A DNA stretch of 64,000 nucleotides from Pleodorina starrii (lineage: Eukaryota; Chlorophyta; Chlorophyceae; Chlamydomonadales; Volvocaceae). Below are positions 7,928 to 61,471 of this stretch, in pieces (positions within the stretch are counted from its first letter, which is position 1; each line of letters begins with the position of its first letter). A program made the position numbers and the translations under genes. The DNA lies in NCBI GenBank assembly GCA_030267565.1, contig BRXU01000030.1:1072001-1136000 (forward strand), read 5' to 3'. The notes under the pieces were generated by a model. The model was not told the DNA's origin and did not search any database. It saw nothing but the letters and a program-made list of their open reading frames with translations.

Positions 7928-9634
7928 ATGGCCGGTCGTCGTGGAGCCTCGCGCCCGGCGGTGACTTCGCAGTCGGTTGCGACCGCGCTGGCGCCGGCGC
8001 TGCTGCTGCTGCTTCTGGTCGTCGCCGCCATGGGTGCCGCTGGCGAGTCAACCGGCGCGGCAGGTCCGTACGACACTATTTGCAGTTAAGTACTATACAT
8101 ACGATGGTACGATCGGTCGATGCGTCGTCGTCGCAGTCAACCGTAAGACGACAATGCCGAGCACGAATTCATTCCGAAGTTGGGGATGCGTGCTATATAA
8201 ATCTAAATACCGGCACTACGGTGTGATGACCTTCGGCCCGCCGCCGTCCCTCCATCTGACACGCCGTCCCTCATCATCGTATGCGTGTCAGCAGGCGGTG
8301 TGGCGGCTTCCGGAGACGTCGCCGGCGGCAGCAGGAAGCTTCAGGCCGCTGCTGATGCCGACAATGACAACGACAACGACGACACCACGACCATCACCTA
8401 CCAAACCACCACCATCGATATCATTTTCTACGGCAGGCGCCTCAACAATTTCCAGCAGGCGGATACGAGCGAGGCCGCCGACAGCAGGAAGCTTCAGAGC
8501 GACGGCGGCGGCGGCACCGGAGCCCCTCCCACAGGCGGCAGGAGCCTGCTGCTGAACGCTCAGCCAATGCCCACCAGTGTTCCGATGACGACCACCATAG
8601 GCAGGAGGCGGCTTCAGGACGCCGCCGCCGGAGCCCCTCCCACCAGCATGAACGTTGCCGGCAGGCGGCTGTTGCAGCCGATGGATACCAGCTCGCCTAT
8701 GGAGATCGAGGGCAGGAGGCGGCTTCAGGACGCCGCCGCCGGAGCCCCTCCCACCGGCGTCAGGAGCCTGCTGCTGAACGCTCAGCCAATGCCCACCAGT
8801 GTTCCGATGACGACCACCATAGGCAGGAGGCGGCTTCAGGACGCCGCCGCCGGAGCCCCTCCCACCAGCATGAACGTTGCCGGCAGGCGGCTGCTGCAGC
8901 CGATGGATACCAGCTCGCCTATGGAGATCGAGGGCAGGAGGCGGCTTCAGGACGCCGCCGCCGGAGCCCCTCCCACAGGCGTCAGGAGCCTGCTGAACGC
9001 TCAGCCAATGCCCACCAGTGTTCCGATGACGACCACCATAGGCAGGAGGCGGCTTCAGGACGCCGCCGCCGGAGCCCCTCCCACCAGCATGAACGTTGCC
9101 GGCAGGCGGCTGCTGCAGCCGATGGATACCAGCTCGCCTATGGAGATCGAGGGCAGGAGGCGGCTTCAGGACGCCGCCGCCGGAGCCCCTCCCACCGGCG
9201 GCAGGAGCCTGCTGAACGCTCAGCCAATGCCCACCAGTGTTCCGATGACGACCACCATAGGCAGGAGGCGGCTTCAGGACGCCGCCGGAGCCCCTCCCAC
9301 CAGCATGAACGTTGCCGGCAGGCGGCTGTTGCAGCCGATGGATACCAGCTCGCCTATGGAGATCGAGGGCAGGAGGCGGCTTCAGGACGCCGCCGCCGGA
9401 GCCCCTCCCACCGGCGGCAGGAGCCTGCTGAACGCTCAGCCAATGCCCACCAGTGTTCCGATGACGACCACCATAGGCAGGAGGCGGCTTCAGGACGCCG
9501 CCGGAGCCCCTCCCACCAGCATGAACGTTGCCGGCAGGCGGCTGTTGCAGCCGATGGATACCAGCTCGCCTATGGAGATCGAGGGCAGGAGGCGGCTGCG
9601 GGGCGGCGGAGCTTCCAGTACCTCCACCACCTAG
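7928..9634 (+). CDS. Secreted repetitive protein with RRL(L/Q) motifs (2 exons)
   Basis: Exon 1 is 7928-8063 and exon 2 is 8292-9634, joined in phase 1 (GCAG/GTCCGT donor, GTCAG acceptor), giving 492 aa. The N-terminus has Arg residues followed by a strong hydrophobic core (ALLLLLLVVAAMGAAG), a likely signal peptide. After an Asp/Asn/Thr-rich segment the protein consists of about five copies of a unit of about 71 residues. Each unit contains RRRLQDAAAGAPPTSMN, VAGRRLLQPMDTSSPMEIEG, RRRLQDAAAGAPPTG and RSLLNAQPMPTSVPMTTTIG. Dibasic RRLL/RSLL/RRLQ motifs recur at each sub-boundary and could be pro-protein processing sites (inference). No known domain was recognised. The ATG at 7928 was chosen because only it adds a signal peptide. 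The stop is TAG at 9632. Confidence 0.7.
8520..9600 (+). repeat. Coding tandem repeat, about 213 bp, about 5 copies
   Basis: Near-identical units inside exon 2 of the secreted repeat protein. They differ by whole-codon changes (one GCC codon more or less, CTG CTG versus CTG, GGC versus GTC), so the reading frame is preserved. This fits recent in-frame expansion or gene conversion. Confidence 0.9.
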
Positions 9635-26590: not shown

Positions 26591-26689
26591 AGGTGAAGAT
26601 TTTGGGTTCGAGTCCCATCTTGGTCGCTCATCACAGCATCATACTGCGTGATGGCCGAGTGGCCTAATGGATAAGGCGTCACCCTCCGA
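26591..26689 (+). tRNA. Permuted tRNA-Arg(CCG), copy 1
   Basis: The 3' half (mature nt 38-73) is at 26591-26626, the spacer at 26627-26652 and the 5' half (nt 1-37) at 26653-26689. Joining the 5' half to the 3' half gives a 73-nt tRNA. The acceptor is GGCCGAG with CTTGGTC (7 pairs, two G-U), the D stem GCC/GGC with loop TAATGGATAA, the anticodon stem TCACC/GGTGA with loop CTCCGAA (anticodon CCG), and the T loop TTCGAGT, with discriminator G. The D arm and anticodon context match eukaryotic arginine tRNAs. The junction falls between nt 37 and 38, the usual nuclear tRNA intron site. In the spacer CATCAC pairs with GTGATG, stacking near the acceptor stem. The leader CTCCC can pair with GGGAG in the trailer, next to the junction. 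This copy has T instead of G at position 49, losing one T-stem pair. A TTTT run follows about 25 nt downstream. Confidence 0.85.
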
Positions 26690-26836
26690 TAGATTGGGAG
26701 TAGTCAGATAAGACTTTTATGCCCGCAGTCTGTCCATCTATCTCAGGACGCTTGTACCATGATGTTCGTTCTTGCCTCACACCAGTAGGGTTCCAGACCC
26801 CAGTCATCGCGACTGCATGGCAACTGACAGGTGCCA

Positions 26837-26910
26837 GGCCTTCTAGCTCAGTTGGTTAGAGCGTGGTGCTAATAACGCCAAGGTTATCAGTTCGATACTG
26901 ATGAGGGCCA
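26837..26910 (+). tRNA. tRNA-Ile(AAU), copy 1
   Basis: Complete 74-nt intronless cloverleaf including discriminator A. The acceptor is GGCCTTC/GAGGGCC, the D stem GCTC/GAGC, the anticodon stem TGGTG/CGCCA with loop CTAATAA (anticodon AAT, read AAU/IAU), and the T stem ATCAG/CTGAT with T loop TTCGATA. A box and B box are intact. Left-block copies carry T48 and A60. Downstream is TTCT rather than the TTTT seen in later copies, so Pol III termination may be weaker here. Confidence 0.93.
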
Positions 26911-27837
26911 ACAAGTTCTCATGCTACCAAGGACGAGGGTGCATGTTATCGATGCATATAGGAATGCTGGAAAATAGGCGCCTGTGTATGCATGCATAGG
27001 GTTCATCACGTACACAGGGATTCTGTGACCTGGTGGTGGAATGTGCCTGCAGGGTTTCGGTTTCAGGGTTCAAACCCAAAGCCACGTGGCTGGCCAGTTA
27101 CGTATGCACGCATATGTACGTATATGTGGGGGGTTACTCGCTCCTTCCACAGCCAGCAGGCTGCAGTCGAACTGCACATGCTGAGCTATCCTGCCTTCCG
27201 TGCGTGCATGCAGACCTTGTGCTCAGCAAGGTTCTGGCTGGAAGATTTAAGAAACCATCCGAAAGACCTCTGTCTCACTTTGGTGATCTGTCACAACTGT
27301 TCTGAATTTGGCTGCAGTGGTAGCTAAAACTGCTTTCCCTACTTCACCAGCAGGTAGGGGAAGCTGCGATGACCACACGTTTGTCCTGCACTCGTCCAAT
27401 TCTGTCTGATGGGTGGCTTGTGTCTTCCACTCTGGATGTACTTCCCGTTTGCTCTGCTTTGTCCCAATGCAGCATATGCATGGCCAGCTGCGGGCCAGCT
27501 GATTCTTTTGTTCCAGAGTTTTGTAACATCCGCCACAACTCCATCCAGCAGCATCTGCATCACCTAACAGAACCACGCACTGCATGTGTCAAGCATAAAT
27601 CCCTGATGATGATTCGTTTCCCTTCTGTTGTCATGATGGAGCTGGACCTGATCATCACCATGAACAAGCCCAGTCAGCAGGTAATCATACATGCATGGCA
27701 GCATGTGTGAGGGCACTAATACGGTTGCTGCAACAGGCACTGTGTGAATGATTGAAGGAGCTGGATATCCGATATGGATGCCTTGAACACTTTACAAGGT
27801 CATCTTTTAGTGAGATATAGCTGCGCTCCCGGGATTT

Positions 27838-27936
27838 AGGTGAAGATTGTGGGTTCGAGTCCCATCTTGGTCGCTCATCACAGCATCATACTGCGTGATG
27901 GCCGAGTGGCCTAATGGACAAGGCGTCACCCTCCGA
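27838..27936 (+). tRNA. Permuted tRNA-Arg(CCG), copy 2
   Basis: 3' half 27838-27873, spacer 27874-27899, 5' half 27900-27936. T stem is GTGGG/CCCAT. The D loop reads TAATGGACAA (C variant of copies 2-4). Confidence 0.85.
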
Positions 27937-28083
27937 TAGATTGGGAGTAGTCAGATAAGACTTTTATGCCCGCAGTCGGTCCATCTATCTCAGGACGCTT
28001 GTACCATGATGTTCGTTCTTGCCTCACACCAGTAGGGTTCCAGACCCCAGTCATCGCGACTGCATGGCAGCTGACAGGTGCCA

Positions 28084-28157
28084 GGCCTTCTAGCTCAGTT
28101 GGTTAGAGCGTGGTGCTAATAACGCCAAGGTTATCAGTTCGATACTGATGAGGGCCA
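28084..28157 (+). tRNA. tRNA-Ile(AAU), copy 2
   Basis: Identical in structure to copy 1, with T48 and A60 of the left block. A TTCT sequence follows. Confidence 0.93.
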
Positions 28158-29084
28158 ACAAGTTCTCATGCTACCAAGGACGAGGGTGCATGTTATCGAT
28201 GCATATAGGAATGCTGGAAAATAGGCGCCTGTGTATGCATGCATAGGGTTCATCACGTACACAGGGATTCTGTGACCTGGTGGTGGAATGTGCCTGCAGG
28301 GTTTCGGTTTCAGGGTTCAAACCCAAAGCCACGTGGCTGGCCAGTTACGTATGCACGCATATGTACGTATATGTGGGGGGTTACTCGCTCCTTCCACAGC
28401 CAGCAGGCTGCAGTCGAACTGCACATGCTGAGCTATCCTGCCTTCCGTGCGTGCATGCAGACCTTGTGCTCAGCAAGGTTCTGGCTGGAAGATTTAAGAA
28501 ACCATCCGAAAGACCTCTGTCTCACTTTGGTGATCTGTCACAACTGTTCTGAATTTGGCTGCAGTGGTAGCTAAAACTGCTTTCCCTACTTCACCAGCAG
28601 GTAGGGGAAGCTGCGATGACCACACGTTTGTCCTGCACTCGTCCAATTCTGTCTGATGGGTGGCTTGTGTCTTCCACTCTGGATGTACTTCCCGTTTGCT
28701 CTGCTTTGTCCCAATGCAGCATATGCATGGCCAGCTGCGGGCCAGCTGATTCTTTTGTTCCAGAGTTTTGTAACATCCGCCACAACTCCATCCAGCAGCA
28801 TCTGCATCACCTAACAGAACCACGCACTGCATGTGTCAAGCATAAATCCCTGATGATGATTCGTTTCCCTTCTGTTGTCATGATGGAGCTGGACCTGATC
28901 ATCACCATGAACAAGCCCAGTCAGCAGGTAATCATACATGCATGGCAGCATGTGTGAGGGCACTAATACGGTTGCTGCAACAGGCACTGTGTGAATGATT
29001 GAAGGAGCTGGATATCCGATATGGATGCCTTGAACACTTTACAAGGTCATCTTTTAGTGAGATATAGCTGCGCTCCCGGGATTT

Positions 29085-29183
29085 AGGTGAAGATTGTGGG
29101 TTCGAGTCCCATCTTGGTCGCTCATCACAGCATCATACTGCGTGATGGCCGAGTGGCCTAATGGACAAGGCGTCACCCTCCGA
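29085..29183 (+). tRNA. Permuted tRNA-Arg(CCG), copy 3
   Basis: 3' half 29085-29120, spacer 29121-29146, 5' half 29147-29183. Same sequence as copy 2 with the D-loop C variant. Confidence 0.85.
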
Positions 29184-29330
29184 TAGATTGGGAGTAGTCA
29201 GATAAGACTTTTATGCCCGCAGTCGGTCCATCTATCTCAGGACGCTTGTACCATGATGTTCGTTCTTGCCTCACACCAGTAGGGTTCCAGACCCCAGTCA
29301 ACGCGACTGCATGGCAGCTGACAGGTGCCA

Positions 29331-29404
29331 GGCCTTCTAGCTCAGTTGGTTAGAGCGTGGTGCTAATAACGCCAAGGTTATCAGTTCGATACTGATGAGG
29401 GCCA
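29331..29404 (+). tRNA. tRNA-Ile(AAU), copy 3
   Basis: Intact cloverleaf with T48 and A60. A TTTT terminator-like run lies about 8 nt downstream. Confidence 0.93.
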
Positions 29405-30334
29405 ACAAGTTTTCATGCTACCAAGGACGAGGGTGCATGTTATCGATGCATATAGGAATGCTGGAAAATAGGCGCCTGTGTATGCATGCATAGGGTTCAT
29501 CACGTACACAGGGATTCTGTGACCTGGTGGTGGAATGTGCCTGCAGGGTTTCGGTTTCAGGGTTCAAACCCAAAGCCACGTGGCTGGCCAGTTACGTATG
29601 CACGCATATGTACGTATATGTGGGGGGTTACTCGCTCCTTCCACAGCCAGCAGGCTGCAGTCGAACTGCACATGCTGAGCTATCCTGCCTTCCGTGCGTG
29701 CATGCAGACCTTGTGCTCAGCAAGGTTCTGGCTGGAAGATTTAAGAAACCATCCGAAAGACCTCTGTCTCACTTTGGTGATCTGTCACAACTGTTCTGAA
29801 TTTGGCTGCAGTGGTAGCTAAAAGCACTGCTTTCCCTACTTCACCAGCAGGTAGGGGAAGCTGCGATGACCACACGTTTGTCCTGCACTCGTCCAATTCG
29901 GTCTGATGGGTGGCTTGTGTCTTCCACTCTGGATGTGCTTCCCGTTTGCTCTGCTTTGTCCCAATGCAGCATATGCATGGCCAGCTGCGGGCCAGCTGAT
30001 TCTTTTGTTCCAGAGTTTTGTAACATCCGCCACAACTCCATCCAGCAGCATCTGCATCACCTACCAGAACCACGCACTGCATGTGTCAAGCATAAATCCC
30101 TGATGATGATTCGTTTCCCTTCTGTTGTCATGATGGAGCTGGACCTGATCATCACCATGAACAAGCCCAGTCAGCAGGTAATCATACATGCATGGCAGCA
30201 TGTGTGAGGGCACTAATACGGTTGCTGCAACAGGCACTGTGTGAATGATTGAAGGAGCTGGATATCCGATATGGATGCCTTGAACACTTTACAAGGTCAT
30301 CTTTTAGTGAGATATAGCTGCGCTCCCGGGATTT

Positions 30335-30433
30335 ACGTGAAGATTGTGGGTTCGAGTCCCATCTTGGTCGCTCATCATAGCATCATACTGCGTGATGGCC
30401 GAGTGGCCTAATGGACAAGGCGTCACCCTCCGA
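30335..30433 (+). tRNA. Permuted tRNA-Arg(CCG), copy 4 (mismatched anticodon stem)
   Basis: 3' half 30335-30370, spacer 30371-30396, 5' half 30397-30433. The 3' anticodon strand reads CGTGA, so pair 31-39 becomes C-C. The spacer has C to T, keeping a G-U pair in the spacer stem. Possibly impaired. Confidence 0.75.
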
Positions 30434-31296: not shown

Positions 31297-34200
31297 TTAG
31301 GGCGGGTCGGCGCTGGTTGTGCTCTGTTGGCGGGGGTCCCGCTCCAGTTGCCTCCTGGCAGCGACAATTGCGTTCAACGCTCGGACAGCGTGGTCGTGGA
31401 GGTCGTTGCAGCATTTTTTGGCCGCTTCGTTGCTCGTTCCCAGTGAGGTCAGCAGTTGTCGCAGGTCTTTGCGGATGGTGCCGGCGAAGCCCAGGCTAAT
31501 TGCTTCCTGTTTCGTGTAACATACTTTCCATCCGTGCGCCGTCAGCATCTGAGCTAGTTCCGCGTGTTGATGGGCCTTGTCGTTTTGTTTCTGTGTGTGA
31601 TTTGTGTCGGCTGTGTAGCCTACTTCGATTATGTGTACAGTGTGCTCGCTGGGGTCATCTGGTCCCATGTATTTCGGTGAGCATGTGTCGCTGAGGGGTA
31701 TGCTGGGGATAAGCAGCAGGTCAGGGCGCTTTTTGGACCGATCTTCGTCGGGGATGTTGGGAAGCAGCCACTTGGGCAGGCGTGTGCCGGCCACGTAGTC
31801 CGGCTTGTCCTCCATGCTGCAGGCGTCCATGACGATGAAGCAGCCGCCATGGGCCCCTCTGGACAGTGTTCTGGTGATGGTTTGTACCGCTTGGTTGTGT
31901 CGCAGGGTATAGAGAGCGTGCATTCGCGCGTGTTGGCAGCCTCCCAGGATGTGTGCTCCTGAGTCAGGGATGCGTGTCTTTGTTTGGGGGTCTTTGCACA
32001 CAGGGCAGTAGCCTGTGGACGTTGGGCCGCCCGGTACAAGGGGCATGCGAAAGAGCTTTGCGAGTTTGGCATTCCAGAGCTGTCCGTACAGGTAGTCGAG
32101 GCACCGTTTGTAATGCCGGTGCCGGCCCGTGCCCCTCTGCAGGGTTCTTGTGCTGGCATTGATCTCTAGGTCCGGTAAGGCATCCTCTACGTATTTGACG
32201 TATGCGGTCTCGTTGGTGTACCCATTGTGTGTCGTCTGGCTGACCAGAGTGTCGATGCCGCGGTTAAGGTCGTTGGCGTAGCGACCGGCGTTTACGTCGG
32301 TCCCCTCGGACTTCCGTAGCCACCAGTGTTTACTTCTTGGATTATTGTCTGCTTTCTCTATTGCGGCTTCTGCCGGCAGCATTCCCTGCGCCGCAAGGAT
32401 AGCAGCCTGTACGGCGGCTTTGTCCGCTTCTTCATTATATCGAACACCTGTATGTGCTTTGACTTTCAATAGCGACGTTTTAAGCTTGGCGACGGCCCGG
32501 GCTTTAAGTGCGGCAACGATGTCCTCGAGCAGTGCTCTATGCTTACTCAGCCGCAATTTTTGCGGGTTGTTTATCATCTTCTGGATCAACTGGAGCGATG
32601 CTTTTGAGTCCGTCCAAATGCTGAGATGGGCTTGGTTGTGAGGTAGGCCGCGTCGCATGGTGAGTGCCTGATGTATCGCGCTTAGTTCACAGCGCGTAAT
32701 TGTTTGACATCCGTAGGCTCCTGGGTTGACATCTATGAGGAGCGTATGTCCAGTCAGTGCGTCGACTGCTGCGGCGCCGAGTCCTAACATCTTGGTGTTC
32801 CCGACCTCGACTTCCCTAACCGACCCATCAGTGTAGATGGATGCGTGGGCGTTGTACCGAAGCGGGTTTGCTGCATGGAACGCCAGGTGCGCGGAGCGTC
32901 GTTCAGCGGGTGTGGGGTTACTGCATTTACGAGAGGGCACCGCCTGGTCAGGCGCTCCGGCAGTCATTTTGCGGACGCGTTTCCGTACCCACTGGGGGGC
33001 TATCCACGGCTGGGATTCACCTGTAGGCGCTGACAGGGTGGTGTGCATACCTAGCGCCTGTCGGAGGCTGCTCACGTGTGATTTGCCCGCGTCGTTACTG
33101 ACCAGTAGCAGGGTCAGGCCAACCGGGTAAGGCTTGGTGTCCACGTTGAGCGTGGCGCTTTGCAGTATCCCCTTGGCGGCGAGCGAGTCGATGCTGCCCA
33201 CTTGCGTGACCAGGGGGTGCGATAGGTACCGGGTATACGGCGCTGTACGGGACGTGGGGACTACGATAAGGGTGGCGGTCTGCGTAGCCTCGGTCTTTTT
33301 GGCTTCCGCCCAGCCCAACGCCCACCGCAAGGCATGGTGGCCCTCCTCGGGTGTGGGTTCCGGGTGTGCGATGGACAAGCCGGTAAACGGTTGGGAGTAT
33401 GCGTCATGGTTGGCCCCAAAGAGCATGTCTTCTGGGAAGCGTGAGAAGTACGTTTCAGTGCAGTTAGCCACATTTAAAGGGGACGCAAAGCGTTCTGTGC
33501 TTGAACCCATGGCATTCATGAGACGCGTTGTAAACTGTTCTCCGAGTCCTTGCTCGTGCGCCGCCTTAACGGGGTGTGTTTTGGTGCCCCCTCCATCACG
33601 GTAGCGCAGGAGGAGGCGTGCCACGTCTTCCTCGAAGCCACCCGCCGCTGCAAGCTTGGCGTGCGCCTCCGGCCTCTTACATTTGGCGTCGGAGTGCCTT
33701 AGCCACAGGCTGCGCAGCAAGCTGTCCAGGAGCGTGCCGATGCATCGTCCCTGGGGGTCGTAAACCAGCGCGACTCCCTGTTCTAGGAGGCCTGCAGGAG
33801 TATCTCCGCTGCCGTCCCAAGGTGCGCGGTTAGAGGGGTCGGGGTCGCTGTGTTTGCCAATCTGGATGGTGTACCGCCCTGTCGGGCGGATGTCCCTGTC
33901 CGGGTTGCCGGGACATACATCGATTTCTACGTGTTGGCGTAGGAGCCGTTGTCCTCTGGCCTGGTTGAGGCATTCAGAGGCCCATTGGCCTTGCTGCTGC
34001 CTCGGATTAAGGTGCTGGTCTCGGGCTGGCGCAGTGCGCCCGGGGGCCGTCTCGGCTGCCGCCTCTAGGCGGTGTCGGAATGCATTGAGCAGCTCGTTCC
34101 AGTTGTCTTGGGTGGCCAGGCGCGTGCCTTCGTCCTCGGTTCGCTCCCAGTCTACTTCGATCCTTCCGGTGGGGGTTGCCGTATCTGCTGCGGCCTCGTA

Positions 34201-37101
34201 CGGACGTGTTGCCGTGGGTAGGTATCCGTGCGCTGCGTACAGCTCGAGCGCCCCTTTGGTGATAACTGTGCTTTCCCACTCAACTTGGTAGAAGGTGCTG
34301 TGTGTGGGGTGCCGGGGTGTATCTCTGCGTTGCCGCTTTGCGGCTCGGGGGCCTGCTTCCACCCGCTTGCGGATCTGCGCGTGTATATGGGCTACCCTCT
34401 CTTGCTCGCCGAATAGGTATTGGTTGATGTTGTGGCCGTATTTAAGGGCAACCCCTGTGGGCCATTCTCGCTCTCCCCGCAGCATTTCTTCAAGCTGCGA
34501 TGCGGTCCCCACTTCGGCTGCTAGTCCTGGGAGGTCGTGGTGACGCAGCAGGGCTTCACAGTGTGTGACGGTGAGTGGGCTTTCTCTGGGGTCCCATCCG
34601 GAGGCAGTTGTGTCCGTGATGTTGCGCGTGGGTTTTGGGTGCTGCCTCCTGATGTATGCCGTCATGGTTTCTTCGGTAGCGTTGCGTCGGGGCATGTGGC
34701 GTCGAGCTTCCCGCTGCTGCGCTGGGCGCCTCACCTGGCCCTCCTGGGATCCGACTTCCCGTCTCGGGGCCGCCGGATCTGGGCTGAGGTTGTGCGCGGC
34801 GGGCGAAGGGTCTGGCGGCGGGGCCCCGGTCGTGTCCCGGGGGCGGGACACCACATATCGCATGATATTTCCATAAGGCAGCGGCGTGGGTCCTTGTGTG
34901 TCGTTCATGAGGTCCGTCATAATGGGCACACTGGGGATGGCCCGCAGCTCCGGGGGCAGCGCAGTCACCCCTCGGTGCCTCGCCGCGCGGGCGCGTACAC
35001 TGGGAGCGGGGTTCAGTGCTAGGCTGAGTTGGTTCAGGGCGATGAGGTGTCGGGGCCCGACACTCCGTCCACCGATGCGTCGGAGCTGGTCCGTGGTAAT
35101 CAAGTGTGCTCCTGTGTTCTTATCTTTCAGGACTCGGAGATCCAGGCCCAGCTCAAGCAGAGGCTGTACGCATCTGGAGAGGAGCGCGAGGGTTTTGGGC
35201 TCCGTCCCCGAGTTGCACGCCGCAAGAAGGTGAATGAGAGTGCTTGCTTTCCGTTCGTACCCTTTGCCACAGTCCGTGAGTTCAATGCCCGCCTCCTGCG
35301 TGATGGTCAGCTGCTTTAGCGTCGTGTAGAAGCGGCTTTCCTTCTTGAGGGCGTGCACCGGCATGTCGCCCATGTATCGGCTTTGCAGGCTAAGGAGAGC
35401 CCTAGTGACTACCCCAAGCCGGCCTTCGTCATTCAGGGAGAGGACGAGAGCTTTGGCCGCCTTGGCGACATAGAGGCTGCGTATGGTGCCGACCCCCAGG
35501 CCGAGTTGCTTTACTGGACCGAGGATTGCGCGGGTGGGAAACCCCATTTTAAGGTCATAGCTGCGCTTAGCTATGCCAGCAATTTGGGAGTCGAAGCTGG
35601 CGATGTCTTGGGGGGTGTACGCCATAGTGGCCAGGCTGTACGCGACGAATGGGTGGATCAGGGTTTTGATCATGTTGATGCGCTGGTCGGGAGACGCCAT
35701 GGACTCCTGGATGCCCTGTCCTCGCCGCGTGATCTCAGCGCGGACATAGGCTACTTGAGGTGCCCAGTCGAGGGTAGGGGTTACATGGACTCCCAGGTAT
35801 TTGTACGAGGCGGTCGGGGGCGCGTAGGGTATCGGTGATCCGTCTATACGGATTTGGTCTTTTAGCAGTCGCTCAAGGGCAGTCTGATATTTGCGGGTGC
35901 CGGGTCCCCGGCTCAGGTCCTGGTCCGACCGTGCGCGGCCGTGCAGGATGCCTTGTAGCTGACATTTGCCAACGTTGACCTTCAGGGCTCCCCATTGCGC
36001 GTACTGCTCGATTTTCGCACATTGGAGACGCATGTCTGAGACGCTGTTTGTGAGTGTAACCAAGTCGTCTGCGAACGCTCCCGAGCTGAAATGGTGCCGC
36101 TCATTTTCCTCGGCCTTGAGGCATCCGTACTGGTATCCCCGTCCTCCGCTGTGCAGCCACCTGAGTAGGGGTTCCATATAGATGATGAACAGCACCGGGG
36201 ACAGCGTGTCACCCTGAATTGTACCGCGTTCGATGGCTATGTCCGCTGTGCAGCCGTGCTCTGTCCGGATGCGCGTGGTGGCCCGTGAGTATAGGTTAGC
36301 TACCACTTCGATCAGGTCGTCCGGGTAGCCCAGGTCGTACATGATCATGAGCAGCTTGTCGTGATCGATCGTGTTGAACGCAGACGTGAAGTCGATGTAT
36401 AGAAGGAAGAGGTCACGGCTGGTGAGGCCCGCGTCCTCGATTGCGTGTAGCACGTTTTGGAGTTGGCGCTCGGTGTTTCGTTGCCTCAGGTAGCCCTCCT
36501 GAGCTTCCGTAAAGATGTGCGCTTGCTCACTGTAGAGTACGATATTCAGCGTAATGTGGCTGGTGTACAGCTTGTAAATTGTGTTCGCCAGGGCGATGGG
36601 CCTTTTGTTCTTAATGAGGAGCGGGTCGCCCTTCTTGGGGATAAGGACCGTGTCGGACTTCGTCCAGTGTGTGGGGATTTCGGCCTTCGCCCACATGACC
36701 GTAATGAGCTGGTGGATGGCGGTCTGGAGGTCGGCGGGTAGTGTTTGTAGAAGTTCGTTGGGTATCCCGTCGGGACCTGGGGCCTTGTTTCTCGCGAGGT
36801 GGTCGATAGACGTGCGGAAGTTGTGTGGATCTAGTACACCCGGGAGGAGCGATGGGGGGGCGTCTCTCCACTTGGCCAGCCCTTCCCTAAGCGGGTCTTG
36901 CGCGCCCGGTCTGGTCCAGGGATAGTTCCGGGGGGCTTCGTTTCGGAGGTACTTTTCCCGTTCGTGGGCCAGAGACGGGTCTCGCAAGAAGGGCGAAGTG
37001 CGTGTGAAGCGCATCGAGTATGTTTTTGGAATCAGTACACAGTCGTCCATCGGTTGGGTGTCGGATGGCCGCGATTCCGCGGGGCTGGTCATCGGGTTCA
37101 A
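31297..37101 (-). CDS. LINE polyprotein: RT, RNase H, restriction-like endonuclease
   Basis: A 1,934-codon open frame. RT motifs lie in the first 450 residues: NKAPGPDGIPNELL, DFTSAFNTIDHDKL, GTIQGDTLSPVLF and FADDLVTLT near residue 345. An RNase H domain starts near residue 1,420 (SIYTDGSV, SIWTDSKASLQLI, KAHTGVRYNEEADKAA). A CPVC...H...C zinc motif near residue 1,700 is followed by a PD-(D/E)xK-like segment (KRPDLLLIP, then HIIEVGYTAD) near 1,790-1,830. The listed ATG is not a true start: coding similarity continues upstream in another frame (next entry). No strong domain was recognised between about residues 600 and 1,350. Such proteins act by target-primed reverse transcription. Confidence 0.85.
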   Translation of the reverse strand: MNPMTSPAESRPSDTQPMDDCVLIPKTYSMRFTRTSPFLRDPSLAHEREKYLRNEAPRNYPWTRPGAQDPLREGLAKWRDAPPSLLPGVLDPHNFRTSIDHLARNKAPGPDGIPNELLQTLPADLQTAIHQLITVMWAKAEIPTHWTKSDTVLIPKKGDPLLIKNKRPIALANTIYKLYTSHITLNIVLYSEQAHIFTEAQEGYLRQRNTERQLQNVLHAIEDAGLTSRDLFLLYIDFTSAFNTIDHDKLLMIMYDLGYPDDLIEVVANLYSRATTRIRTEHGCTADIAIERGTIQGDTLSPVLFIIYMEPLLRWLHSGGRGYQYGCLKAEENERHHFSSGAFADDLVTLTNSVSDMRLQCAKIEQYAQWGALKVNVGKCQLQGILHGRARSDQDLSRGPGTRKYQTALERLLKDQIRIDGSPIPYAPPTASYKYLGVHVTPTLDWAPQVAYVRAEITRRGQGIQESMASPDQRINMIKTLIHPFVAYSLATMAYTPQDIASFDSQIAGIAKRSYDLKMGFPTRAILGPVKQLGLGVGTIRSLYVAKAAKALVLSLNDEGRLGVVTRALLSLQSRYMGDMPVHALKKESRFYTTLKQLTITQEAGIELTDCGKGYERKASTLIHLLAACNSGTEPKTLALLSRCVQPLLELGLDLRVLKDKNTGAHLITTDQLRRIGGRSVGPRHLIALNQLSLALNPAPSVRARAARHRGVTALPPELRAIPSVPIMTDLMNDTQGPTPLPYGNIMRYVVSRPRDTTGAPPPDPSPAAHNLSPDPAAPRREVGSQEGQVRRPAQQREARRHMPRRNATEETMTAYIRRQHPKPTRNITDTTASGWDPRESPLTVTHCEALLRHHDLPGLAAEVGTASQLEEMLRGEREWPTGVALKYGHNINQYLFGEQERVAHIHAQIRKRVEAGPRAAKRQRRDTPRHPTHSTFYQVEWESTVITKGALELYAAHGYLPTATRPYEAAADTATPTGRIEVDWERTEDEGTRLATQDNWNELLNAFRHRLEAAAETAPGRTAPARDQHLNPRQQQGQWASECLNQARGQRLLRQHVEIDVCPGNPDRDIRPTGRYTIQIGKHSDPDPSNRAPWDGSGDTPAGLLEQGVALVYDPQGRCIGTLLDSLLRSLWLRHSDAKCKRPEAHAKLAAAGGFEEDVARLLLRYRDGGGTKTHPVKAAHEQGLGEQFTTRLMNAMGSSTERFASPLNVANCTETYFSRFPEDMLFGANHDAYSQPFTGLSIAHPEPTPEEGHHALRWALGWAEAKKTEATQTATLIVVPTSRTAPYTRYLSHPLVTQVGSIDSLAAKGILQSATLNVDTKPYPVGLTLLLVSNDAGKSHVSSLRQALGMHTTLSAPTGESQPWIAPQWVRKRVRKMTAGAPDQAVPSRKCSNPTPAERRSAHLAFHAANPLRYNAHASIYTDGSVREVEVGNTKMLGLGAAAVDALTGHTLLIDVNPGAYGCQTITRCELSAIHQALTMRRGLPHNQAHLSIWTDSKASLQLIQKMINNPQKLRLSKHRALLEDIVAALKARAVAKLKTSLLKVKAHTGVRYNEEADKAAVQAAILAAQGMLPAEAAIEKADNNPRSKHWWLRKSEGTDVNAGRYANDLNRGIDTLVSQTTHNGYTNETAYVKYVEDALPDLEINASTRTLQRGTGRHRHYKRCLDYLYGQLWNAKLAKLFRMPLVPGGPTSTGYCPVCKDPQTKTRIPDSGAHILGGCQHARMHALYTLRHNQAVQTITRTLSRGAHGGCFIVMDACSMEDKPDYVAGTRLPKWLLPNIPDEDRSKKRPDLLLIPSIPLSDTCSPKYMGPDDPSEHTVHIIEVGYTADTNHTQKQNDKAHQHAELAQMLTAHGWKVCYTKQEAISLGFAGTIRKDLRQLLTSLGTSNEAAKKCCNDLHDHAVRALNAIVAARRQLERDPRQQSTTSADPP

Positions 37102-38350: not shown

Positions 38351-38379
38351 AGTGAGATATAGCTGCGCTCCCGGGATTA

Positions 38380-38478
38380 AGGTGAAGATTGTGGGTTCGA
38401 GTCCCATCTTGGTCGCTCATCACAGCATCATACTGCGTGATGGCCGAGTGGCCTAATGGATAAGGCGTCACCCTCCGA
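38380..38478 (+). tRNA. Permuted tRNA-Arg(CCG), copy 5 (canonical sequence)
   Basis: 3' half 38380-38415, spacer 38416-38441, 5' half 38442-38478. All stems pair as described for copy 1, with GTGGG in the T stem and D loop TAATGGATAA. A TTTT run at 38504-38507 follows the 5' half. The leader ends GGGATTA rather than GGGATTT. Confidence 0.87.
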
Positions 38479-38625
38479 TAGATTGGGAGTAGTAAGAGAA
38501 CACTTTTATGCCCGCAGTGTGTCCATCTATCTCAGGACGCTTGTACCATGATGTTCTTTCTTGCCTCACACCAGTAGGGTTCCAGACCCCAGTCATCGCT
38601 ACTGCATGGCAACTTACAGGTGCCA

Positions 38626-38699
38626 GGCCTTCTAGCTCAGTTGGTTAGAGCGTGGTGCTAATAACGCCAAGGTCATCAGTTCGATCCTGATGAGGGCCA
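38626..38699 (+). tRNA. tRNA-Ile(AAU), copy 5
   Basis: Intact cloverleaf. Right-block copies carry C48 and C60, the usual eukaryotic bases. TTTT at 38705-38708. Confidence 0.95.
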
Positions 38700-39629: not shown

Positions 39630-39728
39630 AGGTGAAGATTGTGGGTTCGAGTCCCATCTTGGTCGCTCATCACAGCATCATACTGCGTGATGGCCGAGTG
39701 GCCTAATGGATAAGGCGTCACCCTCCGA
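39630..39728 (+). tRNA. Permuted tRNA-Arg(CCG), copy 6
   Basis: 3' half 39630-39665, spacer 39666-39691, 5' half 39692-39728. Same mature sequence as copy 5. Confidence 0.87.
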
Positions 39729-40879: not shown

Positions 40880-40978
40880 AGGTGAAGATTGTGGGTTCGA
40901 GTCCCATCTTGGTCGCTCATCACAGCATCATACTGCGTGATGGCCGAGTGGCCTAATGGATAAGGCGTCACCCTCCGA
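40880..40978 (+). tRNA. Permuted tRNA-Arg(CCG), copy 7
   Basis: 3' half 40880-40915, spacer 40916-40941, 5' half 40942-40978. Same mature sequence as copy 5. Confidence 0.87.
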
Positions 40979-42129: not shown

Positions 42130-42228
42130 AGGTGAAGATTGTGGGTTCGAGTCCCATCTTGGTCGCTCATCACAGCATCATACTGCGTGATGGCCGAGTG
42201 GCCTAATGGATAAGGCGTCACCCTCCGA
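42130..42228 (+). tRNA. Permuted tRNA-Arg(CCG), copy 8
   Basis: 3' half 42130-42165, spacer 42166-42191, 5' half 42192-42228. Same mature sequence as copy 5. Confidence 0.87.
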
Positions 42229-43379: not shown

Positions 43380-43478
43380 AGGTGAAGATTGTGGGTTCGA
43401 GTCCCATCTTGGTCGCTCATCACAGCATCATACTGCGTGATGGCCGAGTGGCCTAATGGATAAGGCGTCACCCTCCGA
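43380..43478 (+). tRNA. Permuted tRNA-Arg(CCG), copy 9
   Basis: 3' half 43380-43415, spacer 43416-43441, 5' half 43442-43478. Same mature sequence as copy 5. Confidence 0.87.
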
Positions 43479-44629: not shown

Positions 44630-44728
44630 AGGTGAAGATTGTGGGTTCGAGTCCCATCTTGGTCGCTCATCACAGCATCATACTGCGTGATGGCCGAGTG
44701 GCCTAATGGATAAGGCGTCACCCTCCGA
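44630..44728 (+). tRNA. Permuted tRNA-Arg(CCG), copy 10
   Basis: 3' half 44630-44665, spacer 44666-44691, 5' half 44692-44728. Same mature sequence as copy 5. Confidence 0.87.
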
Positions 44729-45879: not shown

Positions 45880-45978
45880 AGGTGAAGATTGTGGGTTCGA
45901 GTCCCATCTTGGTCGCTCATCACAGCATCATACTGCGTGATGGCCGAGTGGCCTAATGGATAAGGCGTCACCCTCCGA
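45880..45978 (+). tRNA. Permuted tRNA-Arg(CCG), copy 11
   Basis: 3' half 45880-45915, spacer 45916-45941, 5' half 45942-45978. Same mature sequence as copy 5. Confidence 0.87.
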
Positions 45979-47129: not shown

Positions 47130-47228
47130 AGGTGAAGATTGTGGGTTCGAGTCCCATCTTGGTCGCTCATCACAGCATCATACTGCGTGATGGCCGAGTG
47201 GCCTAATGGATAAGGCGTCACCCTCCGA
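47130..47228 (+). tRNA. Permuted tRNA-Arg(CCG), copy 12
   Basis: 3' half 47130-47165, spacer 47166-47191, 5' half 47192-47228. Same mature sequence as copy 5. Confidence 0.87.
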
Positions 47229-48379: not shown

Positions 48380-48478
48380 AGGTGAAGATTGTGGGTTCGA
48401 GTCCCATCTTGGTCGCTCATCACAGCATCATACTGCGTGATGGCCGAGTGGCCTAATGGATAAGGCGTCACCCTCCGA
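48380..48478 (+). tRNA. Permuted tRNA-Arg(CCG), copy 13
   Basis: 3' half 48380-48415, spacer 48416-48441, 5' half 48442-48478. Same mature sequence as copy 5. Confidence 0.87.
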
Positions 48479-49629: not shown

Positions 49630-49728
49630 AGGTGAAGATTGTGGGTTCGAGTCCCATCTTGGTCGCTCATCACAGCATCATACTGCGTGATGGCCGAGTG
49701 GCCTAATGGATAAGGCGTCACCCTCCGA
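49630..49728 (+). tRNA. Permuted tRNA-Arg(CCG), copy 14
   Basis: 3' half 49630-49665, spacer 49666-49691, 5' half 49692-49728. Same mature sequence as copy 5. Confidence 0.87.
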
Positions 49729-50879: not shown

Positions 50880-50978
50880 AGGTGAAGATTGTGGGTTCGA
50901 GTCCCATCTTGGTCGCTCATCACAGCATCATACTGCGTGATGGCCGAGTGGCCTAATGGATAAGGCGTCACCCTCCGA
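50880..50978 (+). tRNA. Permuted tRNA-Arg(CCG), copy 15
   Basis: 3' half 50880-50915, spacer 50916-50941, 5' half 50942-50978. The leader ends GGGATTT, as in the left block. The mature sequence is canonical. Confidence 0.87.
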
Positions 50979-52129: not shown

Positions 52130-52228
52130 AGGTGAAGATTGTGGGTTCGAGTCCCATCTTGGTCGCTCATCACAGCATCATACTGCGTGATGGCCGAGTG
52201 GCCTAATGGATAAGGCGTCACCCTCCGA
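52130..52228 (+). tRNA. Permuted tRNA-Arg(CCG), copy 16
   Basis: 3' half 52130-52165, spacer 52166-52191, 5' half 52192-52228. Same mature sequence as copy 5. Confidence 0.87.
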
Positions 52229-53379: not shown

Positions 53380-53478
53380 AGGTGAAGATTGTGGGTTCGA
53401 GTCCCATCTTGGTCGCTCATCACAGCATCATACTGCGTGATGGCCGAGTGGCCTAATGGATAAGGCGTCACCCTCCGA
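53380..53478 (+). tRNA. Permuted tRNA-Arg(CCG), copy 17
   Basis: 3' half 53380-53415, spacer 53416-53441, 5' half 53442-53478. Same mature sequence as copy 5. Confidence 0.87.
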
Positions 53479-54629: not shown

Positions 54630-54728
54630 AGGTGAAGATTGTGGGTTCGAGTCCCATCTCGGTCGCTCATCACAGCATCATACTGCGTGATGGCCGAGTG
54701 GCCTAATGGATAAGGCGTCACCCTCCGA
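54630..54728 (+). tRNA. Permuted tRNA-Arg(CCG), copy 18 (acceptor variant)
   Basis: 3' half 54630-54665, spacer 54666-54691, 5' half 54692-54728. The 3' acceptor strand is CTCGGTC, turning the G5-U pair into G5-C across the permuted halves. Confidence 0.87.
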
Positions 54729-55879: not shown

Positions 55880-55978
55880 AGGTGAAGATTGTGGGTTCGA
55901 GTCCCATCTTGGTCGCTCATCATAGCATCATACTGCGTGATGGCCGAGTGGCCTAATGGATAAGGCGTCACCCTCCGA
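55880..55978 (+). tRNA. Permuted tRNA-Arg(CCG), copy 19
   Basis: 3' half 55880-55915, spacer 55916-55941 (C to T, keeping a wobble in the spacer stem), 5' half 55942-55978. Mature sequence as copy 5. Confidence 0.86.
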
Positions 55979-57129: not shown

Positions 57130-57228
57130 AGGTGAAGATTGTGGGTTTGAGTCCCATCTTGGTCGCTCATCACAGCATCATACTGCGTGATGGCCGAGTG
57201 GCCTAATGGATAAGGCGTCACCCTCCGA
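57130..57228 (+). tRNA. Permuted tRNA-Arg(CCG), copy 20 (T-loop mutation)
   Basis: 3' half 57130-57165, spacer 57166-57191, 5' half 57192-57228. The T loop is TTTGAGT, so invariant C56 is lost, weakening the B box and the D-loop/T-loop contact. Probably decaying. Confidence 0.65.
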
Positions 57229-59585: not shown

Positions 59586-60222
59586 CAGGGTGGGTTGGCG
59601 GGTGGTTAGCTGAGCGGTAGGCGAATAGCTGACTTGGCAGATGGCTGGGGAATGAATGGCTGGGTGGCTGGGTGGGTGGCTACGTGGCTGGCTGGGCGGG
59701 TGGCTGGCTGGGTGGCTGAGTGGCTGAATGGCTGAGTGGCTGGCTGACTGGGTGGCTGACTGGGTGGCTGACTGGACGGCTGAATGCCTAGGTGACTAGG
59801 TGGCTAGCTGGGTGCCTGAATGACCGGCTGGGCGGCTGGGTGACCGGGTGCCTAGGTGACTGGCTGGCTACCTAGCTGGGTAGCTTGCTTGGGTAGATGG
59901 ATGCGGCGTCTCGCTTTTTTGAATAGTAGACCCATGTGAAGATCGAACGCTATTCAGAGAAGCGACTGCTATTGCGATGCAATACCGTACCGACATGAAT
60001 AGTCGTACACACTACATATGCATATGACCCCTTGTTTGTCGCTGTTGGGTGGCCAAATGCCTGAGTGACTGGGTGACTGGATGGCTGGGTGGCTGGCTGG
60101 GCAAATAGGCGACTAAGTGGCTAGGTGACTGATTGGCTAGCTAGCTAGATGGCTTGCTGCGTAGATGAATGGCTGTATAAGTGACCGACAGGATGGATAC
60201 CTGGGTGGGTAACTAGATAACT
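59586..60222. repeat. TGGC-based minisatellite
   Basis: Degenerate (T/A)GGCTGG(G/C)TGGCTGA units run through this stretch, broken at about 59900-60045 by a diverged copy of the 176-bp repeat. No coding function is visible. Confidence 0.8.
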
Positions 60223-60223
60223 G

Positions 60224-61471
60224 GATACGGCGTCTCGCTTTTTTGAACAGTAGACCCATGTGAGGATCGATCGCTATTGAGAGAAGCGACTGCTGTTGCA
60301 ATGCTATACCGTACCAACATGAATAGTCGTACAGACTGCATATGAATATGACCCCTTGTTTGTTGCTGCCAGTTTGCGGAGCCGTACCCAGAATAACTGG
60401 ATACGGCGTCTCGCTTTTTTGAACAGAAGACCCATGTGAGGATCGATCGCTATTGACAGAAGCGACTGCTGTTGCAAGGCTATACCGTACCGACATGAAT
60501 ACTCGTACACACTGCATATGGATATGACCCCTTGTTTGTTGCTGCCAGTTTGCGGAGCCGTACCCAGAATAACTGGATACGGCGTCTCGCTTTTTTGAAC
60601 AGTAGACCCATGTCAGGATGATCCGCTATTGAGAGAAGCGACTGCTGTTGCAAGGCTATACCGTACCGACATGAATAGTCGTACAGACTGCATATGAATA
60701 TGACCCCTTGTTTCTTGCTGTAATTAATTAATTGTTTGTTGCTGCCAGTTTGCGGAGCCGTACCCAGAATAACTGGATACGGCGTCTCGCTTTTTTGAAC
60801 AGAAGACCCATGTGAGGATCGATCGCTATTGACAGAAGCGGCTGCTGTTGCAAGGCTATACCGTACCGACATGAATAGTCGTACAGACTGCATATGAATA
60901 TGACCCCTTGTTTGTTGCTGCCAGTTTGCGGAGCCGTACCCAGAATAACTGGATACGGCGTCTCGCTTTTTTGAACAGTAGACCCATGTCAGGATGGATC
61001 GCTATTGAGAGAATCGACTGCTGTTGCAATGCTATACCGTACCGACATGAATAGTCGTACAGACTGTATATGAATATTATGACCCTTTGTTTGTTGCTGC
61101 CAGTTTGCGGAGCCGTACCCAGAATAACTGGATACGACGTCTCGCTTTTTTGAACAGAAGACCCATGTGAGGATCGATCGCTATTGACAGAAGCGACTGC
61201 TGTTGCAATGCAATACTGCACCGACATGAATAGTCGTACAGACTGCATATGAATATGCGTGGGTTCTGGCTCGTTTTGTGGTATAACTGGATACGGCGTC
61301 TCGCTTTTGTGAACAGAAGACCCATGTGAGGATCGATCGCTATTGACAGAAGCGACTGCTGTTGCAATGCAATACTGCACCGACATGAATAGTCGTACAC
61401 ACTGCATATGGATATGACCCCTTGTTTGTTGCTGCCATTTTGCAGAGCCGTACCCAGAATAACTGGATATC
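60224..61471. repeat. Tandem repeat of about 176 bp, seven to eight copies
   Basis: Units start with AACTGGATACGGCGTCTCGC at about 60221, 60396, 60571, 60771, 60948, 61127 and 61286, with a partial one at 61462. Spacing is mostly 176-180 bp. One unit has a 24-bp insertion with TAATTAATTAATT and one is shortened. Each unit contains a CATATG-AATATG motif. The array is cut at about 61471 by a retrotransposon. Confidence 0.9.

Follow-up and report, generated by a model that had tools for sequence, protein, structure and literature searches.

Organization of the tRNA array

The window, which is the whole stretch of DNA analysed here, comprises 64,000 nt of the genome of Pleodorina starrii, a multicellular alga of the Volvocaceae (Chlorophyceae). 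It corresponds to C30:1072001-1136000 in an assembly of 136,057,477 bases and 95 contigs, in which an exon for the Rubisco small subunit agrees with a small chain in the PDB (from Chlamydomonas) in 74 of 75 residues. It contains 20 copies of a tRNA-Arg(CCG) gene with its two halves in swapped order, all on the + strand (Table 1). In each copy, nt 38-73 of the tRNA (36 nt) are followed by a 26-nt spacer and then by nt 1-37 (37 nt). Four copies, starting at 26591, 27838, 29085 and 30335, occupy positions 26591-30433. They are followed by an ORF (31297-37101) and by 16 further copies, which start at 38380 and recur with an exact period of 1250 bp up to 57130. Each array unit also carries one collinear tRNA-Ile(AAT) gene, 20 in the window according to ARAGORN. 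The 73 exon bases are exact in 14 of the 20 permuted copies, and the other six carry one or two changes.

Table 1. Positions of the permuted tRNA-Arg(CCG) genes, their parts and related tRNA genes (window coordinates unless a contig is given).
Feature	Position	Strand	Remarks
5' leader, focal copy	38366..38379	+	CTCCC 38368-38372 able to pair with trailer GGGAG 38485-38489
Leader GGA, focal copy	38374-38376	+	able to pair with U33C34C35
3' half, nt 38-73, focal copy (copy 5)	38380..38415	+	
Intervening sequence, focal copy	38416..38441	+	26 nt, from discriminator base 73 to nt 1
5' half, nt 1-37, focal copy	38442..38478	+	anticodon CCG 38475-38477
3' trailer, focal copy	38479..38494	+	GGGAG 38485-38489 able to pair with leader
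TTTT, candidate RNA polymerase III terminator, focal copy	38504..38507	+	offset +26
Permuted tRNA-Arg(CCG) copy 1	26591..26689	+	G49 to T, T-stem pair broken
Permuted tRNA-Arg(CCG) copy 2	27838..27936	+	D-loop T to C
Permuted tRNA-Arg(CCG) copy 3	29085..29183	+	D-loop T to C
Permuted tRNA-Arg(CCG) copy 4	30335..30433	+	nt 39 G to C, one anticodon-stem pair broken; D-loop T to C
Permuted tRNA-Arg(CCG) copy 6	39630..39728	+	
Permuted tRNA-Arg(CCG) copy 7	40880..40978	+	
Permuted tRNA-Arg(CCG) copy 8	42130..42228	+	
Permuted tRNA-Arg(CCG) copy 9	43380..43478	+	
Permuted tRNA-Arg(CCG) copy 10	44630..44728	+	
Permuted tRNA-Arg(CCG) copy 11	45880..45978	+	
Permuted tRNA-Arg(CCG) copy 12	47130..47228	+	
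Permuted tRNA-Arg(CCG) copy 13	48380..48478	+	
Permuted tRNA-Arg(CCG) copy 14	49630..49728	+	
Permuted tRNA-Arg(CCG) copy 15	50880..50978	+	
Permuted tRNA-Arg(CCG) copy 16	52130..52228	+	
Permuted tRNA-Arg(CCG) copy 17	53380..53478	+	
Permuted tRNA-Arg(CCG) copy 18	54630..54728	+	acceptor-stem T to C, pairing retained
Permuted tRNA-Arg(CCG) copy 19	55880..55978	+	
Permuted tRNA-Arg(CCG) copy 20	57130..57228	+	T-loop C56 to T
Collinear tRNA-Ile(AAT), unit of focal copy	38626..38699	+	about 150 bp downstream of the focal permuted gene
Collinear tRNA-Arg(CCG)	C13:1157846-1157952	-	34-nt intron at 37/38; ARAGORN, Rfam tRNA

When the halves are rejoined, the 73-mer is recognized by ARAGORN as tRNA-Arg(ccg) and folds into a cloverleaf (-25.2 kcal/mol, RNAfold). 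The 20-fold permuted gene with its 26-bp spacer and the full pairing of its stems after rejoining, both claimed in the original prediction, thus hold in the window. In the native window sequence ARAGORN calls only the 20 tRNA-Ile(AAT) genes and none of the 20 permuted copies, so other genomes may hide such genes. Swapped order, a cloverleaf with the consensus bases, the junction and the spacer length together identify, at the level of sequence, a type II (37/38) permuted tRNA gene.

A permuted-tRNA search and covariance-model folding had been proposed along with the prediction, and both recover the array. Of the 20 window copies, the permuted-tRNA scanner picked up 19, missing the one at 57130 (T loop TTTGA), and it found nothing in 20 dinucleotide shuffles. 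For a covariance model (R2), seven collinear tRNAs from this genome (Thr, Lys, Gly, Arg-ACG, Arg-TCG, Ile and Trp, with Arg-CCG left out and the Gly row shifted by one column at its start) were rewritten in permuted order. R2 detected all 20 copies at 57-66 bits (E 3e-16 to 3e-19). Applied to the window and four loci, R2 gave 73 matches: all 27 permuted genes that were found in the genome scored 56.7-66.3 bits, and the remaining 46 matches reached at most 23.2 bits, those that were placed overlapping tRNA-Ile genes. In alignment A1, which combines the seven rearranged tRNAs with a natural permuted gene, the structure is 97.0% paired and 18 of 21 pairs are changed on both sides, as in tRNAs in general.

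A whole-window Rfam scan at the gathering threshold returned no match. Because tRNA-Ile reaches 61.4 bits (cut-off 29) when a short stretch is scanned, this zero was rejected as a sign of absence. YrlA RNA contains a tRNA-like module. This bacterial Y-RNA-like family (Rfam RF02553) matched 38366-38494 with 23.7 bits (E 0.024), a weak likeness far under its gathering score of 69, and the permuted gene was not assigned to it.

The ORF at 31297-37101 (- strand) splits the array between units 4 and 5. Its 1934-aa product matches reverse transcriptase, RNase H and PCIF1_WW, and it would be a retrotransposon-like element with an unusual third domain (the PCIF1_WW match). Two other repeats lie in the window. 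Just downstream of the tRNA array, 60217-61469 is occupied by a separate tandem repeat with periods of 159-376 bp, and 8517-9597 holds about five 216-bp tandem repeats that are 98% alike and lie in open frames on both strands.

Permuted and collinear tRNA-Arg(CCG) genes in the genome

The count of 20 copies was extended to 27 permuted tRNA-Arg(CCG) genes in the whole genome, with 25 on C30 (those of the window and five at C30:1143490-1149500), one on C1 and one on C28. A search of the genome with the rejoined 73-mer (27 candidates scored) gave 54 matches on these three contigs, every one a half in permuted order. The exact 73-base consensus is present in 18 of the 27 genes. The C1 and C28 exons are each identical to the C30 consensus at 73 of 73 bases, and their spacers measure 13 and 14 nt. 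Blastn comparison of the three loci detected no similarity beyond the gene, except for about 12 nt of leader common to C28 and C30. On the trailer side, similarity between loci stops at nt 37 or one base later.

The pattern RRTGGATARNGCNNNNNNYTCCGR, searched with zero mismatches, occurs at 25 places in the genome: 24 permuted genes and C13:1157916. The three permuted genes outside these matches are window copies 2 to 4, in which the D loop is changed. The match on C13 belongs to a tRNA-Arg(CCG) gene with its halves in normal order. ARAGORN calls it tRNA-Arg(ccg), 107 nt, when introns are allowed and makes no call when they are disallowed; it scores 48.6 bits against Rfam tRNA and 29.6 bits with R2. 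Its 37 + 36 exon bases are interrupted exactly at 37/38. This gene, like the limit of similarity between the permuted loci, places the junction at 37/38 as originally claimed, and the exact cut would lie there. Used as a query, the C13 gene retrieved one copy. A near match at C2:1895105 is not a tRNA and was rejected as an Arg(CCG) gene.

The C13 gene and the permuted genes have in common the anticodon, the point of interruption (37/38) and 62 of 73 exon bases (31/37 and 31/36); they differ in the order of the halves and in copy number. Inspected by eye, none of the 11 differences breaks a stem pair. Double changes occur at 6-67, 13-22 and 29-41, the first and last of which connect both halves, and may predate the permutation. 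Moreover, the trinucleotide GGA is found at -6 to -4 in the C13 intron and in the three permuted leaders (4/4), where it faces U33C34C35, the register expected of an anticodon-intron pairing; it occurs in that place in 0.2-1.7% of shuffles of each 14-mer. This intron-end motif, common to the C13 intron and the permuted leaders, indicates an intron-based origin of the permuted genes.

The existence of the C13 gene means that the permuted genes are not the sole source of tRNA-Arg(CCG). A collinear tRNA-Arg(CCG) elsewhere that accounts for the mature tRNA, together with a lack of reads across the 37/38 junction, had been named in the original prediction as what would speak against it. Such a collinear gene does exist, in intron-bearing form; the other half of that clause concerns reads.

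Permutation was found for this isoacceptor only. The permuted-tRNA scanner, run on 106 genomic loci (some overlapping, with copies repeated), returned Arg(CCG) alone. Probes based on plant tRNAs retrieved gene copies for Cys, initiator-type Met, Ser(CGA) and Leu(TAA), all of them collinear; in the tRNA family search of the genome, 63 of 4674 candidates were scored. Exact scans for the halves in prokaryote and viral contig collections gave nothing.

Flanking sequences and proposed processing

At all three loci the leader could pair with the trailer next to the junction, in the manner of a bulge-helix-bulge-like (hBH) motif: CTCCC/GGGAG on C30, TTCTCC/GGAGAA on C1 and CTCCC/GGGAG on C28, in registers chosen by eye. 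Compared with letter shuffles, the P values at the three loci are 0.0086, 0.027 and 0.0018 (Fisher 5e-5); compared with random genomic segment pairs, many of them GC-rich, they are 0.10, 0.23 and 0.055, which is not remarkable. Folded freely, the C1 and C28 precursors adopt the permuted cloverleaf together with the leader/trailer helix. The free fold of the C30 precursor (-44.5) is not the cloverleaf (-42.6) and lies 1.9 kcal/mol lower. The candidate TTTT terminator is present at the same offset in 25 of 25 C30 copies and at +28 in C28, and no TTTT was found within 150 nt in C1. Upstream, TATA is found in C30 and C28 and an AT-rich stretch in C1.

The host genome also has a 12-nt intron in a tRNA-Tyr(GTA) gene, as well as two exons matching PF01974, which suggests that ordinary tRNA splicing operates in P. 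starrii. The PF09511 ligase was not found in a search run without a positive control.

The first reading of the gene architecture appears supported by the cloverleaf, an independent covariance model, two more loci, the potential leader/trailer pairing and the shared intron-end motif. Since the halves are in swapped order, a working tRNA can arise from these copies only if the cell rejoins them after transcription. These are very probably type II (37/38) permuted nuclear tRNA-Arg(CCG) genes that derive from an intron-bearing gene like that of C13 and are rejoined after transcription, and we expect with similar confidence that their transcripts are processed to real tRNA.

The transcription, cutting, joining, circle formation and charging, like the origin of the genes, are inferred and would proceed as follows. 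A single RNA would contain the 3' half, the spacer and the 5' half. In the folded precursor the acceptor stem would be closed by the spacer loop and the anticodon arm left open at 37/38, and the pairing of leader with trailer would resemble that between the ends of a tRNA intron. After cleavage at 37 and 38 by the tRNA-splicing endonuclease, a ligase would join 37 to 38, giving a circular pre-tRNA from which end-processing nucleases would excise the spacer. The pathway with a circular intermediate described for known permuted tRNAs fits here (PMC3978253, PMC4033280), and RNase P and tRNase Z have been named as possible end nucleases (PMC4033280). As to origin, a C13-type intron-bearing gene would have been duplicated in tandem, with subsequent loss of the outer halves. 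It seems rather probable that the permuted gene, having arisen through an intron, then became the high-dosage form and not a dying relic, with circular pre-tRNA-Arg as a routine intermediate.

Function and alternative explanations

The identity of the exons at three places despite diverged spacers and flanks argues for function, as does the integrity of the stems after 11 differences from C13, though this may predate the permutation. Variation within the array gives no convincing support for selection: among the 25 C30 copies, variable sites number 6/36 in the 3' half, 1/37 in the 5' half, 2/26 in the spacer, 1/14 in the leader, 1/16 in the trailer and 4/44 in the 44 nt past the trailer. Arg(TCG) genes could wobble-read CGG, and the C13 gene could serve, which means that the cell might do without the permuted ones.

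The permuted genes could be relics, in which the tandem duplication of an intron-bearing tRNA-Arg gene left swapped inner halves that stay silent or unjoined and multiplied only as passengers of the tRNA-Ile unit, C13 supplying the tRNA. The intact collinear gene on C13, the variation of the 3' half within the array and the broken stem pair or T loop in at least 4 of the 25 C30 copies would all agree with this. We nevertheless consider it unlikely, because the two solitary copies on C1 and C28 hold 73 of 73 exon bases next to diverged spacers and flanks, and the potential for leader/trailer pairing is retained with different letters. If transcripts are made, they might instead be used as two separate half-tRNAs, or in the form of a stable circle, rather than as charged tRNA. 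Nothing direct speaks for such a role, for which the C13 gene would leave the permuted genes free, and a full cloverleaf with its anticodon in the 18 exact copies is more than a half-RNA needs; we regard this as very improbable. It is harder still to believe that the array is a SINE-like, tRNA-derived mobile element whose halves merely resemble a tRNA. The high copy number and the retrotransposon-like ORF within the array would suit such an element, but C1 and C28 share only the gene and a short leader with the array unit, 16 copies recur at an exact 1250-bp period, and the exons make a complete tRNA. Permuted genes processed to tRNA remain the preferred reading.

Permuted tRNA genes have been reported from several lineages: 34 in six unicellular algae and one archaeon (PMC3978253), to which nucleomorph genes were added (PMC4494063). 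The original prediction had given their range as Cyanidioschyzon, prasinophytes, a nucleomorph and an archaeon; these hosts stand, and the list was incomplete, as such genes are also described in the trebouxiophyte Auxenochlorella (PMC12633428, PMC12636532), a green alga outside the prasinophytes like P. starrii, from which it differs in being a trebouxiophyte. The prediction had further named no known case in a volvocine-type alga and none in a tandem array, and no earlier case appears in the searchable literature on permuted tRNAs in green algae: among the papers listed, none reports a tandem array, a host in the Chlorophyceae/Volvocales or a multicellular host.

A close likeness exists to the type II genes of prasinophytes (Ostreococcus, Micromonas) and of chlorarachniophyte nucleomorphs, in which the 3' half also lies upstream, the junction is at 37/38, leader and trailer pair as they may in Pleodorina, and the spacer falls within 1-74 bp (PMC3978253, PMC4494063), the range reported for permuted tRNA genes (PMC3978253). 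One permuted Ser gene of O. tauri is type V (PMC3978253, PMC4494063). The prasinophyte and nucleomorph genes encode Ser, Leu, Cys, iMet, Arg(TCT) and Asn, and their published table contains no array (PMC3978253, PMC4494063). Those of Pleodorina encode Arg(CCG), number 27 and coexist with a collinear relative that has an intron and the same anticodon. In the red alga Cyanidioschyzon merolae the halves are likewise swapped, and 6 of 11 genes are type II; this unicellular alga differs in having several junction positions, other tRNAs and at most two genes per tRNA (Gly CCC) (PMC3978253). Charged tRNA from permuted genes has been demonstrated in C. merolae (PMC3978253).

Both the origin and the persistence of permuted genes are called unclear in a review that considers compact genomes, a defence against mobile elements and neutral leftovers (PMC3978253). 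The 136-Mb genome of P. starrii, with its large tRNA arrays, retrotransposon-like ORF within the array, intron-bearing relative and 27 copies, speaks against the need for a compact genome and makes the intron-duplication route directly testable. If the preferred reading is true, the genome of one multicellular alga has both states of one isoacceptor, collinear with a 37/38 intron and, in 27 copies, permuted. Strains of P. starrii exist in culture (PMC10256686).

Other tandem tRNA arrays were observed at C2:6121542-6358594, C36:434054-511881 and C2:6665164-6735886; their contents are many dozens of Arg(ACG)-type matches, genes for initiator-type Met and intron-bearing Tyr, and places scoring like a Lys(CTT) gene (L004). 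On C3, between tRNA-Trp genes, a tRNA at L071:1049-1122 (- strand) has by eye a tRNA-Glu-like body and, according to ARAGORN, the anticodon CTT (Lys), possibly the result of an anticodon switch.
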